This document shows, piece by piece, positions 9,015 through 42,961 of a stretch of DNA of 64,000 nt. The DNA lies in the NCBI RefSeq assembly GCF_900182955.1, contig NZ_FXUL01000001.1, positions 434,001-498,000 on the forward strand. Direction: 5' to 3'. Each line of letters starts with the position of its first letter. The first letter of the stretch is position 1. The stretch is from Noviherbaspirillum suwonense. GTDB lineage: Bacteria > Pseudomonadota > Gammaproteobacteria > Burkholderiales > Burkholderiaceae_D. The notes beneath the pieces are model-generated. The model did not search any database. It was not told the DNA's origin and was given only the letters and a program-made list of their open reading frames with translations. A program made the translations under genes and the position numbers.

Positions 9015-12000
9015 TTACGAAAAGAGCGGTTGAGCACCTGAAACATAAAGATTGAATTGTGTCGCCCCGATCCCCTCGTAGTGATAATGATCGTAGCTGA
9101 CGCCGAGGACGGTAAGGCTATCCACCTTGGTCCGGCTAAAACCGTCGTCTGCAACGAAGACCTGGTCGTTTGCATCGGCTTTCAGGAATAACAGGTCGCC
9201 AGAGGTAAAGGCAATGCCGGCACTCGGGGTCAGGCGGAAGATATCGGCCGCGCCGTTGGCGAAGTCGAAGGCATCGACATTGGCATAGGACGTCTTTCCA
9301 CTGGATGCGTTTTCGCTGACGAGAAAGCGCCCCAGGTCCAGGTCCGTCATGCCCGTGATTTTTATGGTGTCGGAGCCGGCGCCGCCGTCGAACGCAATAT
9401 CGTGCAGCTTGCCGGCTGCCGCGTCCTGGTACAGGTCTTTAATCACCAGGGTGTCGTTGCCGATACTGCCCGTCACGGTGAACTGCGTCAGCCGTGCAGT
9501 GGCGCTGGTGCCGGTAAAGCTCTTGTCGAAATAGAAGGTATCGTCGCCGGCGCCGCCGGTCAAGGCGCTGTACGACCCGCCGTCATTGAACAGGCCGGCC
9601 TTGCCGGCAACGATGGTATTGTTTCCATCGCCGGCATTGATGTCGTAGTGCGCTGTTCCTCCGTGCCCGCCAGGTCCACCCGATCCAGGATGCGTGATTC
9701 GTCCAAGGGGCGTTCCATTGATAAACCCGCTGGCATTCGGGTTTGCTGCGCCTCCCAGGCCATCCTGTCCATCGATTCCACCAGCACCGATATCGCCCTG
9801 CAGGATGATGTCCCTGGCAAAGCCGGTCTCTATCTTGTAATTAATCGAGCCGCCAGAGCCGCCACTCCCGCCATCTCCGCCATCCTGCCCGAATTGCGAA
9901 GCAAAAAAACGACTGGTGCCCGGCGTAACCGTGTAATTTCCCGCCGCGCCGTTTCCGCCATTGCCGCCATCTCCTGCATCTGCCTGATCGCCGCCGAACA
10001 GCAGGACACTTCCCGATCCGGTTTCGGCCACGGTGTAATCGATGGTTTCGCCATTGGCGCCGTTGCCGCCCGCCGGCGTTGTCCCGCCGTCCACGCCTGC
10101 AGTGTAGGGACCCGCGGCCCCTCCCTGGCCGCCGTTGCCAACGGCAATAAGCGCCGCGCCGAGAACGAGATGCGGACTGGCATCCTGATACGCAATGCGT
10201 TCGTTAAAAGCGGTAGCAGAGGTCGGGCTGGCGCCGGCGACAGTGGCAGTACCGTCACCGCCAGCGGAACCGTTCTCGCTGCTGTAAGCCGGCTTGTCGG
10301 GTAATGTCACGGTGTAGTCCACGCTGTTTATAAGCATGCTTCCCCCATCTGCCAGCACGACGTTATCAGCCGCAGCGCCGGTGGGTGAGAATGTGCCGTT
10401 GATCACATCCGCGCCACAGAGAAGAATGTCGACGGCGGTCGACGCTGCGACCGTCACAGTCGCCGTCGCTGCATTGCTGCTCGCGCCTTTCGTATCTTGC
10501 GCCACGTAGCTGAAACTGGCTGCGCCGCTGGTTGACGGCGTAAAGGTGACGGTGCCGTCGGTATTGAGCACGGCAGTGCCGCCGGCGCCATCGGTCACGC
10601 TGGATATTTTCAACAGGGCGGCATCGCCGTCGTCTGCATCGGTATCGTTTCCCAGCAGTTGCAGGGCGGTGTAGATAGCCGGCGCGCCCCGGGTGGCTGT
10701 CAAGGCATCGTTTGTCGCAACCGGCGTGTCGTTGACGCCATTGACGGTAATTTGCATCGTCCCGTTGGTCGAGCTCACGCCGTCGCTTACGGAAAAATTC
10801 TGTAGCAGGTCCACGCTGCTGCCCTGCGATAAATGCTGAAACGCTGCGTTTTTCGGATCGAAGCGATAGGCGCCATCCGGGTCGATGTTCAACGCCGTCA
10901 CCAGGATGCCGGTACTGGCGAAGGTCAGGCTTGCGCCGGCATCGACATCGCTGCCATCGAGGCGTCCCGTCAATGCCGGGCCATCTTCCGATACCGTGGC
11001 GCTGGCCGACGTAACGACAGGCGCATCGTTTGCGCCGTTGATACTGATCCTAATCGTCTCCTCGGTGCCATCTTCCGTCGTGACCTGAAAGGTGTCCTGC
11101 AAGGTCTCGGTCGTGTTGAGCTTTTGTACGGTGCCGTTGTGGTTGGTGAGGGTGTAAGTCCACTTGCCGTCAGCGCTTATTGCATAAGTGCCATAGCCAC
11201 CCCGGCTGGGCTGGCCCGGAGTCGCGTCCATGAAGGTATTGGCCGCATTATCCACGTCTGCCGCCGTCACTACGCCGGTCGCTGTGGGCGAGCCAGGCGT
11301 GCCGTTGTCGACGCCGCCCGCTTCCGTCACTTCGCCAGTCAAGCTGCCATCGACGATGGCGTAATCGTTGACGCCGCTGATGGTGACCGTTTCGGACTGG
11401 ACCGATGTACCGCCGTTGCCGTCGTCGACCTGGTAATCGACGCGTATGGTGCTGGTCTGCGCTTCTTTCCGATTGGTCTGACCTGCCAGATGGTCGAACG
11501 CGTCATTGCCCGGGTCGACTGTCAGTGTCCGTCCGGACAGGCTCAGGCCACTCGGCGCGGTCGCCGGCGCAGCGCCGCCGTCGACGCTGTAGGTGACGTT
11601 CGATATGCTCAGGGTGCTGATGTCATTGTCGACATCGCTTGCCCCGGCGAGCAAGTCGATGTCATAGGATTCCGCGTCTTCGCGCGCGGCCGAGACAAGC
11701 GCCGCGCCCACGGTTGGCGCATCGTTTGCGCCCTTGATGCCGATCGTGATCGTTTGCGCCGTGCCGTCGGCCGTCGTGACCTGAAAGCTGTCCTGCAAGG
11801 TCCCGGTCGCGCTGAGCGCTTGCACTGTGCTGTCGGTGTCGTCCAGTGTATAGGTCCATGTGCCGCTAGCGGTCATTGCGTAAGAGCCGTAGCCGCCCGT
11901 GCTTGCCTGGCCTGCAGCCGTCGCCGTGAACGTGTTCGCCGGGTTGTCCGGGTCCGTGGCCGTCAGCAGGCCGGTTGCAGTGGGCGAGCCGGCCGTGCCA

Positions 12001-12935
12001 TTGGCCACGCCGCCGGCTTCCGTCACGTCTCCGCTACGTTGGCCGTTGATGACGGCAGCATCATTGGCGCCGGTGATGTTGATTGTCACGGTGGCAGTTT
12101 TTACATCGCCATTCGCATCCGTCACGGTGTAGGTGAACGTATCCTGGGCGGTCTGGCCGGCGCCGAGTCCCTGATAAATATCGTTGGGCGTATAAACGAA
12201 CTGCGCTGCCTGTCCGGTTGCGGGATGCGTCAGATCGAGATTCGCCAGGGCCACTGTGCCGTGTCGCGTGCCATCGGCGCCTGCCGGCGGCTGCGTGAAT
12301 GTGATGCTTCTAGCGAGATCGGGCACGCTGTCATTGGCCAGCACATTGAACGCGGTGCTTGGCGCATCTTCGCTGCAGGCAATCGTATCTGCCGTCAATG
12401 TGACCGGATCGTTCCTCGGATCGAGCGCGATCCCGTCCACGGTCACTGTCAGGTTTTCCATCCCGAAGGTGGTCAGGCCGAATGCCTTGAACTCGAACAA
12501 TGATGATTGGGCTTTCGTTCCAGCGAGGAATGCCAGGTATTGGGCGACATCGGCCTGCACGCCGGGCGTGAGCCATTGTGCATAAGTAAAGCCGAGCTGG
12601 AGCGTGTCCGTCCCGAAGCCGCCACTATAGCCATCCCGGTAGCCAGCATTTTCGGCCATGCCATAACTCAGGATGTCGCTTCCGGCGCCGCCGTTGAGCA
12701 GGTCATGGCCGGCGCCGCCTTCAAGCCTGTCATTGCCGGCGCCGCCATCGAGCAGATCGTTGCCGGATCCGCCGTCAAGTTTGTCATCACCCAGTCCGCC
12801 ATATAAAAAGTCGTTGCCGGCGCCACCGTTCAACGTATCGTTTCCCGTGTTGCCGAGAATCGTGTCGTTGCCCGAGTTATTGCCTGATGAACCCGGATAA
12901 ACATCGTTGCCGGGTGTGCCGTTGTAGATTGCCAT
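9015..12935 (-). CDS. Giant RTX/VCBS repeat protein, probable type I-secreted adhesin
   Basis: The 1306-residue product opens with nine or so RTX-like nonapeptides of the GGAGNDxLxG type (residues ~5-90), which bind calcium. A middle region (~165-840) holds cadherin/Ig-like and VCBS repeats ending in GANDAP-type motifs; two of them (~300-405 and ~530-640) are near duplicates starting EAGGV. A Gly/Asn-rich region (~840-1130) and a short RTX-like remnant ([11 protein letters not shown]) follow. No signal peptide is present, consistent with type I secretion through a C-terminal signal, but no type I transporter genes are nearby. The RTX block at the N-terminus instead of the C-terminus is unusual. 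Adhesion or biofilm matrix is the likely role. Confidence 0.8.
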
Positions 12936-39723: not shown

Positions 39724-39868
39724 CCACGCGTCATTAAGCGCATCCCGATGTTCGTTGGCGCACCGATGACGATCCGTCGTCGGGCGTATGCTCAGGATTG
39801 GACAGCAGTGCCGGCTGCCTGCACGCAGGACAGGCCGGCTATTTCAATCAATCAGCAAGGATATCGAG

Positions 39869-40399
39869 ATGACCGCAGAAAACACCGTAGGCAAATTGGA
39901 CAAGAACGCAATCCGCGCCGCCGCAACCAGCACCGAAGAGGGCGCAGTCAGCTCGGGCTACAAGGGCGACCGCGAAGGCATCATCGCCATGTTGAACGAA
40001 GCACTGGCGACCGAACTGGTCTGCATCATGCGCTACAAGCGCCACTATTACACCGCGACCGGCCTGGAAAACACGTCGATCAAGGAAGAGTTCCTGGAGC
40101 ACGCGAAAGAAGAAGAAGCGCACGCCGACATGATCGCCGAGCGCATCGTCCAACTCAATGGCGACCCGGACTTCAATCCCCGCACGCTGAGCGAGCGCAG
40201 CCATGCAGAATACGACGATTCGAGCGACATCCGCGCGATGATCAAGGCCAACCTGATCGAGGAGCGGGTCGCGATCGAGGCATACAGGCAGATGATCGAG
40301 CGGATCGGCGATAGCGATCCGACGACCAAGCACATGCTGGTGCAGATCATGGCGCAGGAAGAGGAACATGCAGATGATATGAGCGATCTGCTCCAGTGA
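39869..40399 (+). CDS. Ferritin-like / bacterioferritin-related protein
   Basis: The 176-residue product, read from MTAENTVGKLD, has the ferritin-like four-helix diiron pattern: LNEALATELVCIMRYKRHYY (Glu ligand in helix 1), EEFLEHAKEEEAHADMIAERI (E-x-x-H), and IEERVAIEAYRQM with the C-terminal MAQEEEHADDMSDLL (second E-x-x-H). It probably stores or detoxifies iron, but the heme-binding Met of true bacterioferritin cannot be confirmed. The region immediately downstream is the unusual repeat block. Confidence 0.85.
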   Translation: MTAENTVGKLDKNAIRAAATSTEEGAVSSGYKGDREGIIAMLNEALATELVCIMRYKRHYYTATGLENTSIKEEFLEHAKEEEAHADMIAERIVQLNGDPDFNPRTLSERSHAEYDDSSDIRAMIKANLIEERVAIEAYRQMIERIGDSDPTTKHMLVQIMAQEEEHADDMSDLLQ

Positions 40400-40620
40400 G
40401 ATGGAGGATGTTCTGGTCAGCTGGGCTTGCTTGATTATGCTTGGCAGCTGACCGGCTGACCGATTCGGTGGTCGACTGCTCGACTTGTTGACTTGTTGAG
40501 TGGCCGGCTGCCTGGCTGGGTTGGTGCAATTGAGTTTTCAAGTGGGCTAGTATGTGGTGGGCCTGGCACTATCCTGGCCTATATTTCTGCTCCCCCATGT
40601 TTTCCTCTTCGCCGTGAGTC

Positions 40621-40882
40621 GGCTGCGCAGCAGCTGTATCGAAGGGTTGCCCCAGCTTCAGCATGTCTTTGCTGTTGCAGTTGTAGTTGCAGTACCGCAC
40701 AGCGACCGTTGCTGTTGCTGTTGCTGTTGCGCGCGCAGCGACAGTTGCAGTTGCAGTATTTCGCTGTACTCCCACCTCCATTTCCCCTAAATGCTCTCGC
40801 AGTGAGTGTATCGAACGGTTCCTCACACCTGTGGCATGTCGTTGCAGTTGCCGTTGCAGTGGCCGTTGCCGTTGCCGCTGCA
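40621..40882. repeat. Left hexamer blocks (GTTGCN type)
   Basis: Two blocks. The inner block 40841-40882 is seven in-phase hexamers of the type GTTGCA/GTTGCC directly touching the left element arm. The outer block, around 40671-40768, has runs of GTTGCT and GTTGCA. Both blocks are introduced by a related segment (TGTATCGAA followed by GGTT, then CATGTC), around 40634-40669 and 40807-40840, so the outer block looks like a diverged direct duplicate of the inner one. Confidence 0.8.
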
Positions 40883-41097
40883 GTGAATCCCCGTCGATGG
40901 CAACACGTCGCCAGTGCCGAAATCGGATAAAGAAGCGTCCGCTGTCTGAGCGAAGCGAGTTTCGGACGTTTCCCGATTTCGGTGCTGGCGGCGTGTGCAC
41001 CCCGCGCAGCGGGGCGCCATCATCGGGCTCGCCTTCTCTTGCCTACTTCTCTTGGCGAAGCAAGAGAAGTAGGTCGGCTGCCGGGCCGAAACCCGGC
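40883..41097 (+). repeat. Multi-hairpin repeat element, left copy
   Basis: Read left to right: an outer stem 40909-40926 pairing with 40973-40990 (18 positions, two G.U), continued after a five-base bulge by an inner stem 40932-40941 / 40963-40972 (ten positions, one G.U). A second hairpin is CCCCGC (41000-41005), loop GCA, GCGGGG (41009-41014). A third is a 12-bp stem 41043-41054 / 41061-41072 with loop GCGAAG. A fourth is GCCGGG (41080-41085) / CCCGGC (41092-41097). An inverted copy lies at 41272-41488. Confidence 0.9.
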
Positions 41098-41271
41098 TAG
41101 GTCGTCCGGCAGGCCAGCCGGTATTGCTTCATCCGCCAGCAGGCGCACCGTCGCGAAGCCGCTTCTGCAGTTTGCGACGGCTGCACGTTACGAGAACTCG
41201 CCACAGCGCAAGGCGCCGATGCTGCGTCTGCTGACGGGTGAAACGTTGAGGATTCACTGCCGTGGGGAGTA

Positions 41272-41488
41272 GCCGGGAGTCCGTCCCGGCGGCCGGGTCA
41301 CTTCTTTTGCTTCGCCAAAAGAAGTAACCAAGAAAAGGCGACCCCTACGATGGCGGTCCGCTGCGCGGACTGCACGCGCCGCCAGCACCTGAAACGGGAA
41401 GCGTCCGAAACTCGCTTCGCTCAGACAGCGGACGCTTCTTTATCCGTTTCAGGCGCTGGCGACGCGTCGCCATCTAACGGGGATTCAC
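41272..41488 (-). repeat. Multi-hairpin repeat element, right (inverted) copy
   Basis: Reverse-complement relative of the element at 40883-41097. Stems are at 41444-41461 / 41380-41397 (outer), 41429-41438 / 41398-41407 (inner, perfect), 41365-41370 / 41356-41361 (second), 41316-41325 / 41300-41309 (third, loop again GCGAAG on the minus strand) and 41285-41290 / 41272-41277 (fourth). Differences from the left copy fall mostly outside stems or change both partners of a pair. Confidence 0.9.
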
Positions 41489-41489
41489 T

Positions 41490-41867
41490 GCAACGGCAAC
41501 CGCAACGACAACTGCAGCGGCAGCGGCAGCGGCAACCGCAAAGGCAACGGCAACCGCAAAGGCAACGGCAACCGCAAAGGCAACGGCAACCGCAAAGGCA
41601 ACGGCAACCGCAACCGCAACCGCAACCGCAAAGGCAAAGGCAAAGGCAACGGCAACCGCAAAGGCAACGGCAACCGCAAAGGCAACGGCAACGGCAACGG
41701 CAACGGCAACCGCAACCGCAACCGCAAAGGCAAAGGCAACGGCAACCGCAACCGCAAAGGCAAAGGCAAAGGCAACGGCAACCGCAAAGGCAACGGCAAC
41801 GGCAACCGCAACCGCAAAGGCAACGGCAATGGCAACCGCAAAGGCAACGGCAATCGCAACCGCAACG
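41490..41867. repeat. Hexamer array, 63 in-phase units
   Basis: Immediately after the right element, 63 hexamers run without a phase break. The first seven are variable. The remaining 56 (41532-41867) are almost all one of three words: GCAACG, GCAACC, GCAAAG, with two GCAAT variants near the end. The words follow a fixed cyclic order (ACG, then ACC, then AAG) with same-word runs of up to four, so the ancestral unit was probably 18 bases. Three more units occur at 41880-41897 after a 12-base interruption. Confidence 0.95.
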
Positions 41868-42118
41868 GCCGTTTCCCAAGCAACGGCAACGGCAACTGTC
41901 GCTACGCGGAACTCCAGCTGTCGCTGCACGGGCAACGACTTCCTGCAGTCGCTGCGCGAAACTTCCTTGTACTAGGATCGTCTTGCGTTAGCCACCCCAT
42001 CCATCCAGCGATCGTCGAAGCCAGTGGCCGACCAACCACTGTCAGATCGCTTCCTGCATCCTCGCCGCGCATCGACAGCACCGCCGGCACGTCCCGCGGC
42101 ACCACGCCGCCGCCCCCT

Positions 42119-42961
42119 TTACGGTAGCAGGACCGACAACTCCTGCGCCCCACGCAAAAGGGATGGCAGGAATTCCTCTTCCATCTGCCGCGTCGACACG
42201 CGCGTCGCCTGCGCGCCGATGTTCAGCGCGGCATGCACGACGCCCGACGCGCCGCGAACCGGGACTGCGATGGAACGCAGGCCGACTTCCAGTTCTTCTT
42301 CGACGACCGAATAGCCCGACACGCGTACCTCGCTCAGGATCTCGCGCAGCCGGGCGACGGAGACGACGGTGCGCTCGGTGTAGGCGCGCAGCTTCACGGT
42401 GTCGAAATAGCGTTGCAGCGCTTCATCCGACAGGTTCGCCAGCAGCACGCGGCCAAGGGACGTGCAGTAGGCGGGGAGGCGGCTGCCGGTGTTGAGGGCG
42501 ATGGACATCACGCGGGAGGTGGCTGAACGGGCGACATATAAGACCTCGTCATTGTCGAGGACCGCGAGCGAGCAGGACTCGTTGAGCGCGCGGCTGATGC
42601 CGTTCAGGCAGGGCTGGGCGGATACGGTGAGCGGGGTGGAGGACAGGTAGGAATAGCCGAGCGACAGGATCTTGGGCTTCAGGAAGAAGTTGTTGGCCTC
42701 GGAATCGGCGTAGCCGAGACGCTTCAGCGTATACAGGCAGCGCCGGACTGCGGCGCGCGGGATGCCGGTCTTGTGGCTGATCTGGGCGATGGTGAGGCTG
42801 CGGCGCTGGTCGCTGAAGGCGCGGACCACGGCAAGGCCGCGTGCGAGCGATGTCATGAAGCTTGGGTCAGTCATCGCTTCGATTTCCTGCGCGATGGTCA
42901 ATAGCTTATCGGAGTGAAAAGACTGGTTGTCCAGGACAATCGGCTCTTGGAATGCTTGCAT
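42119..42961 (-). CDS. pcaR: IclR-family regulator of the beta-ketoadipate pathway (PcaR/PcaU/PobR type)
   Basis: A 280-residue IclR-type regulator with an N-terminal winged helix (FMTSLARGLAVVRAF, LTIAQISHKTGIPRAAVRRC, LYTLKRLGYAD) and a C-terminal effector domain. The N-terminal wording is that of PcaR/PcaU/PobR proteins, which bind beta-ketoadipate or protocatechuate-type effectors and control pca genes. It is divergent from the pcaIJFHGBDC operon, and two matching operators lie in the shared promoter region. A shorter start at Met30 (MTDPSF) is possible. Confidence 0.9.
   Translation of the reverse strand: MQAFQEPIVLDNQSFHSDKLLTIAQEIEAMTDPSFMTSLARGLAVVRAFSDQRRSLTIAQISHKTGIPRAAVRRCLYTLKRLGYADSEANNFFLKPKILSLGYSYLSSTPLTVSAQPCLNGISRALNESCSLAVLDNDEVLYVARSATSRVMSIALNTGSRLPAYCTSLGRVLLANLSDEALQRYFDTVKLRAYTERTVVSVARLREILSEVRVSGYSVVEEELEVGLRSIAVPVRGASGVVHAALNIGAQATRVSTRQMEEEFLPSLLRGAQELSVLLP

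Follow-up and report, generated by a model that had tools for sequence, protein, structure and literature searches.

A dispersed bacterial dyad repeat with a predicted triple-helix pseudoknot in its arms

The intergenic element found in the 64,000-nt stretch of the Noviherbaspirillum suwonense genome analysed in this work (hereafter the window) is a multi-copy chromosomal repeat, which in this genome takes the form of an inverted dyad located mostly between convergent genes. Each arm of the dyad specifies a single fold, about 220 nt long, on one of the strands, read from the side of a bordering repeat array inward, and substitutions among homologues give good support to a predicted structure with pseudoknots and a triple helix. 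The object is larger than the pair of inverted multi-hairpin copies described in an earlier, sequence-only reading of the window, as it comprises a multi-copy dyad, bordering hexamer arrays and a pseudoknot with a triple helix. With a probability of roughly 0.55, we regard it as a non-autonomous dispersed element, REPIN- or SINE-like, which is recognised through its folded sense strand by a putative host or trans-acting factor.

The dyad and the common fold of its arms

The dyad lies in a 1.7-kb gap between a ferritin-like gene (39788-40399, plus strand) and a gene of an IclR-type regulator (42119-42961, minus strand). The gap contains, in this order, a left hexamer array, arm A, a spacer, the inverted arm B and a right hexamer array, the two arms forming a single dyad of about 604 bp flanked on both sides by (GTTGNN)n arrays. 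The left array (40668-40882, limits approximate, plus strand), recognised from sequence and as a direct-repeat family, consists of degenerate GTTGNN units 5' of arm A, and the right one (41489-41905, limits approximate, minus strand), detected by direct repeats, reads NNCAAC on the plus and GTTGNN on the minus strand and lies 5' of arm B. Arm A occupies positions 40883-41097 of the plus strand; arm B, its inverted second copy as delimited by the fold and by double changes, occupies 41272-41488 of the minus strand, and the spacer between them (41098-41271) recurs in other dyads. Both arms have the single apical tip UCUGAGCGAAGCGAGUUU, and GTAG at 41269-41272 adjoins the terminal palindrome of arm B, the arm unit being about 217 nt. 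Elsewhere in the window, at 11020-12015, there is a 300-nt direct repeat with 75% identity.

In an inverted-repeat search of the window the arms were aligned over 200 nt with 84% complementarity. The predicted folding energies were -129.4 kcal/mol for arm A (z -8.8) and -134.8 kcal/mol for arm B (z -10.1), none of 200 shuffles being as good in either case, and the arms fold into one common structure with 74 pairs common to both folds. Nine pairs differ between the arms on both sides with pairing kept, among them all six stem-preserving double changes reported in the sequence-only reading. The same reading saw no stem-breaking difference, which agrees with the absence of broken pairs among the 74 common ones (six rows scored as broken are pairs predicted in just one fold); of one-sided, pair-keeping differences it listed two, and the pairwise comparison gives five, including one pair predicted in the fold of arm A only. 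The pseudoknot with the triple helix is invisible to such a comparison of arms A and B. Since each arm retains its own identity across dyads, the A-B difference is not repeated evidence, and independent evidence is supplied by other genomes.

Read from the array inward, the arm specifies first a closing stem, then a long hairpin that has an internal loop of conserved sequence and ends in the tip UCUGA..CGAGUU, then a short hairpin, a triple-helix pseudoknot (PK1) and a second pseudoknot (PK2), an organisation resembling that of structured RNAs. In arm A the model of the 3' module, R1, matches positions 41000-41103 of the plus strand (1229-1332 of locus L001). Here the 5' strand of the PK1 stem S1 (UCGCC, 41029-41033) is predicted to pair with 41054-41058, all five pairs covarying, and the loop L1 (UUCUCUU, 41034-41040) to be a third strand parallel to AAGAGAA at 41062-41068. 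The P4 hairpin (41041-41074) includes GGCGA, the S1 3' strand at 41054-41058, in its loop and the purine tract in its 3' strand, and in PK2 (41074-41097) UCGGC would pair with the loop GCCGA and CCGG with CCGG. On the minus strand, the letters of arm B allow the same arrangement, with the S1 5' strand UCGCC at 41337-41341, its partner at 41312-41316, and L1 UUUUCUU (41330-41336) parallel to AAAAGAA at 41302-41308.

Two- and three-way covariation across homologues

The covariance model R1 was built from 27 arms. Of its 191 matches, 160 were parsed, the weaker and repeated ones being left out, which gave 136 distinct arms from 66 genomes; arms with a purine tract in the two main geometries, numbering 51 and 46, were aligned. 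The 3' half of each arm is read as an H-type pseudoknot, in which a loop of pyrimidines runs parallel to a purine strand and would form U.A-U and C.G-C triples with it, matching a major-groove triple helix. Complementarity exists between the segment 5' of P4 (e.g., UCGCC, UGUCC, UGCCC, CGGCC and GUGGC) and the P4 loop (GGCGA, GGACA, GGGCA, GGCCG and GCCAC, respectively).

In the 51-arm alignment (29 genomes, with a gapped column preceding the last two pairs), 96.4% of 918 cells are paired, compared with 80.2% in shuffled and 50-60% in slid alignments, these counts and shuffles being made without a tree, with the relatedness of arms outside the null. The covariation score is 0.471 versus 0.166 for shuffles, none of 500 of which reaches it, and double-sided changes occur in 14 of 18 pairs versus 9.0 in shuffles. 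The selection on folded structure proposed from the two arms of the window is thus supported at the level of homologues. All five S1 pseudoknot pairs are altered on both sides, and 91.8% of the S1 cells are paired. In the second geometry class (46 arms, 31 genomes), S1 is paired in 204 of 230 cells (shuffle maximum 173) and P4 in 548 of 552 (shuffle maximum 473). Moreover, 5-bp helices with exclusively Watson-Crick pairs are found in 26 of 62 unique linker/loop combinations, against 3.4 by permutation with a maximum of 8.

The triples fit in 402 of 408 cells of the 51 arms, compared with 243-244 when slid by one and with a mean of 339 and a maximum of 354 in shuffles; L1 was made to start at the best 6-nt match, a choice that favours matching, and the slides and the count of completely fitting rows guard against this only in part. 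All eight triple positions fit in 46 of 51 rows in the parallel register and in none in the antiparallel one, where 292 of 408 cells fit. The second class gave 320 of 322 cells (shuffle mean 261, maximum 274), the antiparallel register with 264 of 322 being at about the shuffle level. At variable positions U.A-U and C.G-C are swapped in the three strands together. When L1 was permuted among arms and the whole tract was required to match, with one arm of locus L043 (L043+) dropped for a misparsed hairpin, 102 of 125 matched (mean 35.7, maximum 48); with a fixed 7-nt tract the count was 100 of 132 (mean 37.9, maximum 50), and a less specific core-6 form 117 of 123 (mean 65.8, maximum 79, antiparallel 68). 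Both L043 arms were dropped from later sets. At least two tract types, some of them plain A-runs, coexist in 20 of 65 genomes, and all types match in 17 of these 20.

The second H-type pseudoknot, required as interleaved helices, was found in 66 of 125 unique tails versus 1.2 in shuffles (maximum 4), and was absent from the other 59 under the limits used; an earlier test by single stems, superseded by this one, had given a weak enrichment (47 of 111 versus 27.9, maximum 43).

Single non-Watson-Crick pairs between good pairs were counted by a rule which scores all mismatches equally. In 150 arms, those of one genome not being independent, there were 102 G-U, 26 A-C and 125 other mismatches, and in the 51-arm alignment 31, 7 and 26, respectively. 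By region, the G-U/A-C ratio was 59/16 in P2 and 42/6 in P4, with the asymmetry absent elsewhere (1/4). A double-stranded or cruciform element would give symmetric counts, and hence the asymmetry, together with the two- and three-way substitutions that preserve both pseudoknots and triple helix, points to the array-inward strand as the probable object of selection, either as RNA or as single-stranded DNA, both of which fit the mismatch count.

Copying of one arm from the other was considered as the source of covariation and rejected, because it cannot yield a parallel third-strand match; the G-U/A-C counts likewise exclude it. The same evidence bears on a repeat structured only as DNA, cruciform or H-DNA-like, whose complementarity would be kept by template-switch correction and not by selection on one strand. 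Copying can indeed correct inverted arms and hairpins, and bacterial repeats with an intrastrand DNA triplex have been described (PMC4666352), but copying can neither make nor keep a parallel (mirror) third strand, nor hold the pseudoknot helices in step, and with the G-U over A-C asymmetry observed we consider such a repeat very unlikely. The known repeats of this kind, BoxC, PIT and TM-ECO, resemble the element in being dispersed in bacterial genomes and having a potential intrastrand triplex (PMC4666352). That source details another motif and catalogues potential triplexes generally; it describes TM-ECO as a G/C-rich purine-motif DNA triplex, with a C-rich and then two G-rich stems, and does not contain the word 'pseudoknot'. 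The arms differ from TM-ECO in the predicted pyrimidine-motif parallel third strand within a pseudoknot and in the three-way covariation.

The topology of PK1 is that of the telomerase RNA pseudoknot, for instance in Kluyveromyces lactis, which has the order S1-L1-S2 and whose U-rich L1 lies in the S2 groove, forming U.A-U and C.G-C triples there. The likeness is limited to fold topology, and we know of no common sequence or protein partner of telomerase RNA and the arms.

Copies, placement and spread

The host genome (6.45 Mb, 78 contigs) yielded 42 matches with the arm B query and 53 with the arm A query (E <= 1e-3), each query also matching the other arm. A motif search of the loci around these matches revealed 24 distinct complete dyads of 586-608 bp, defined by the outer ends of arms A and B, their arrangement being partly by construction. 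GTTGNN-like arrays were present outside the complete dyads wherever flank sequence was included; the arrays vary greatly among copies, the dyad itself being nearly constant. Four consecutive GTTGCN units were found at 137 places on one strand and 118 on the other, versus 33 and 43 for a control which is not independent of the array, and the matches listed (contigs C1, C3, C4 and C5) lie, as judged by eye, at element flanks or contig ends. In other genomes, other units (GTTGAC, GGTTTT, GCAAGA) were seen 5' of the arms, and in other families there are loci where no array was visible.

Twenty-two dyads of the host genome were examined for placement by a simple reading-frame rule, and convergent frames flank 17 of the 21 with a frame on both sides, or 12 of 16 after exclusion of five whose frame enters an array, both counts standing without a base rate. 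Arrangements elsewhere include single arms, 5'-to-5' pairs and 3'-to-3' pairs. Among 34 single arms with frames on both sides, 12 were convergent, 4 divergent and 18 co-directional, the last being divided equally between sense-sense (9) and antisense-antisense (9); frames overlapping an arm were removed as spurious, and an intergenic position was assumed.

Such placement can be read as that of a 3'-end element, in which the triple-helix knot in read-through transcripts would block exonucleases and the dyad would end or insulate convergent transcripts. Protection of RNA 3' ends by triple helices is known from other systems. In the host dyads between convergent genes each arm lies in the sense of the adjoining gene, and the corresponding unoccupied site of a congener (G001, see below) has, by eye, a short hairpin with a T tail. 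Against this, single arms show no orientation preference among co-directional genes, and many pairs are arranged 5'-to-5', so that the first arm is read antisense. Terminator-like sites in the window gap numbered 5 versus 2.8 expected (sd 1.7), in a scan which missed the G001 hairpin. We therefore hold a 3'-end role to be doubtful; for a dispersed element of the kind preferred here, convergent 3' ends would be the places where it is tolerated.

By nucleotide search, matches were found in 21 of 60 genomes, and of 369 genomes of the class searched with R1, 72 had a match (E <= 1e-3), the host being counted in both results; the 72 represent 45 families by database codes. The exact module pattern occurs in at least 120 stretches from named genomes, the 80 matches listed including Lysobacter, Dyella, Frateuria, Luteimonas, Silvimonas, Rhodoferax, Halopseudomonas, Pseudomonas abyssi and several Pasteurellaceae, Aggregatibacter and Mannheimia among them. 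The recurrence in Burkholderiales and Xanthomonadales, which the sequence-only reading had mentioned, therefore holds and extends to a wider range of bacteria. The tip motif lies upstream of the module in 12 of 21 listed stretches inspected by eye, the others having different apical hairpins or none visible (L230, L232, L246, L294). In Pasteurellaceae, e.g., Mannheimia and Aggregatibacter, the architecture is retained with a different, A+T-rich long stem. The module pattern was also seen in contigs of metagenome-assembled genomes labelled Desulfobulbus, Desulfobacterales and Bacteroidales (L225, L264, L294), representing either real spread or binning error. The letter strings of the motifs had no match in the literature searched, a body with subscription papers mostly outside it.

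Relation to described elements, mobility and meaning

No match to Rfam was obtained for the window at the gathering score, and a search of 40600-41950 with E up to 1 gave only sub-threshold miRNA-, VA- and isrG-like matches, with RF01731 (TwoAYGGAY) absent; RF01731 was not found in the host genome either (E <= 1e-3). In other genomes this motif meets the element. At the gathering score it was detected in 5 of 26 loci scanned (L109, L111, L112, L166 and L193, the last overlapping the place of L112), where it covers a part of the arm, or of one beside it, directly 5' of the module. RF01731 was found in 23 of 369 genomes (15 above the cut-off), 13 of which are also among the 72 with the module, and R1 follows within about 100 nt 3' of RF01731 at 19 of 30 loci in 14 of 23 genomes (17 loci at E below 1e-3). 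At other TwoAYGGAY loci, e.g., L350, L351 and L355-L357, no module was seen by eye. In some families, TwoAYGGAY thus takes up the apical, 5' position within the arm, ahead of the common pseudoknot/triplex module; it differs in that, where matched, the Rfam model stops before the pseudoknots, that some of its loci have no module, and that the host arms lack the two AYGGAY-loop hairpins and give no match to the model. By their sequence, the arms of the window are not TwoAYGGAY members. Consequently, a match to an already described element, which the sequence-only reading had named as a possible refutation, exists for the apical part of relatives in other families, but not for the copies in the window. 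TwoAYGGAY was judged by its discoverers to be a probable RNA, not cis-regulatory, from human gut, gamma-proteobacteria and Clostridiales (PMC2864571, 2010), and its typing as Cis-reg in Rfam stands against the discoverers' table.

This kinship is one of the points in favour of reading the arms as trans-acting small RNA genes which serve a host function and, like rRNA, form an amplified and homogenised family. The deep conservation of the complex fold, the homogenised copies and the presence of arm B in no phage and only one plasmid record are in line with such a family as well, but its patchy presence (72 of 369 genomes) and the many copies per genome make it rather improbable. The lack of a promoter-like site in the window gap also counts against it, although this says little with only 0.2 expected by chance.

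Evidence on gain and loss of the element comes from three further genomes. Congener G001 keeps the same two genes adjacent, with a short gap having no match to five element queries, and therefore the site differs by presence or absence of the element; the direction of change is left either way, and the difference at this single site could be a loss. With regard to MITEs, outer inverted ends are present, and alignment to the unoccupied G001 site gave no junction; because the arrays border the dyad and mask any duplication, termini and target duplication are not definable. In the sister pair of species G002 and G003 the genes next to the ferritin gene are different ones, and the stretch examined contains no adjoining element. 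Five sites are occupied in both of these genomes, with long flank matches 82-93% identical (at two of the five, one flank only was checked), which suggests that the element moves little at this scale. Distances between orthologous arms of the pair are 0.031-0.128, those to the nearest paralogue being 0.022-0.046, and one dyad (L208 versus L217) is reversed at the same site in the sister species, by inversion between arms or arrays. As orthologous arms are no closer than paralogues, copies are homogenised between loci, and the reversed dyad indicates that they can flip. In several loci a cut at or near the P4 loop (GCTTCGCC) leaves only the last ~56 nt of the second arm, namely L033, L054/L214, L204 and L213 in G003, and L053/L219 and L218 in G002. 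In L033 and L054 a transposase-like gene, which we take to be IS66-like, follows the trimmed arm, which would fit a preference of insertions for the hairpin.

With respect to vehicles of transfer, the arm B query had no match in phage records and only one in plasmids, a 2.5-Mb Variovorax replicon covering 34% of the query, and neither of two exact patterns matched viral contigs; phage carriage was rejected on the phage and viral-contig results. Among 22 carriers, 17 have the Y1 transposase domain and 12 reverse transcriptase (RVT_1), the numbers among 20 other genomes being 17 and 10, and these similar counts rule out a RAYT or a reverse transcriptase as a required partner. Mobilisation of a REP/REPIN by a REP-associated tyrosine transposase would agree with the palindromic and dispersed nature of the element, its convergent placement and the GTAG beside the terminal palindrome of arm B. 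The element is like REP and REPIN sequences in being palindromic, chromosomal and arranged in inverted pairs; it is unlike them in the pseudoknots and in the size of the arm, which is several times longer than a REP palindrome of 20-40 nt. As Y1_Tnp (PF01797) was not found in the host genome (G000; E <= 1e-5) in spite of full-length copies 88-100% identical to arm B, nor in 4 other carriers, we consider such mobilisation hardly credible. By description only, the element may be likened to the intergenic dyad sequences of Haemophilus influenzae, a Pasteurellaceae species, which are thought to be important for gene-locus mobility (PMC4144887).

The reading of the element as non-autonomous and dispersed is drawn from its multiplicity, patchiness and homogenisation and from the absence of a gene. 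The folded sense strand would be recognised by the putative factor, and copies would thereby spread or be homogenised. Standing against it, neither of the two mobility proteins searched tracks the element, and a selfish element does not obviously need a triple-helix pseudoknot kept over 45 families.

At somewhat less than even odds, the arms could represent a new, widespread class of complex non-coding RNA, combining the triple-helix pseudoknot and the second pseudoknot with exchangeable apical domains, and spreading and homogenised in bacterial chromosomes without a phage, a plasmid or a protein of its own, that is, a bacterial SINE-like RNA. The apical domain would then be TwoAYGGAY in some lineages and a UCUGA/CGAGUU-capped hairpin in others. 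A triple helix within a pseudoknot was read here from sequence alone, through three-way covariation across many bacterial families, and to our knowledge few triple helices have such support. The orphan TwoAYGGAY motif gains a larger body, and the puzzles posed by complex orphan RNAs and by dispersed bacterial repeats come together in one testable object.
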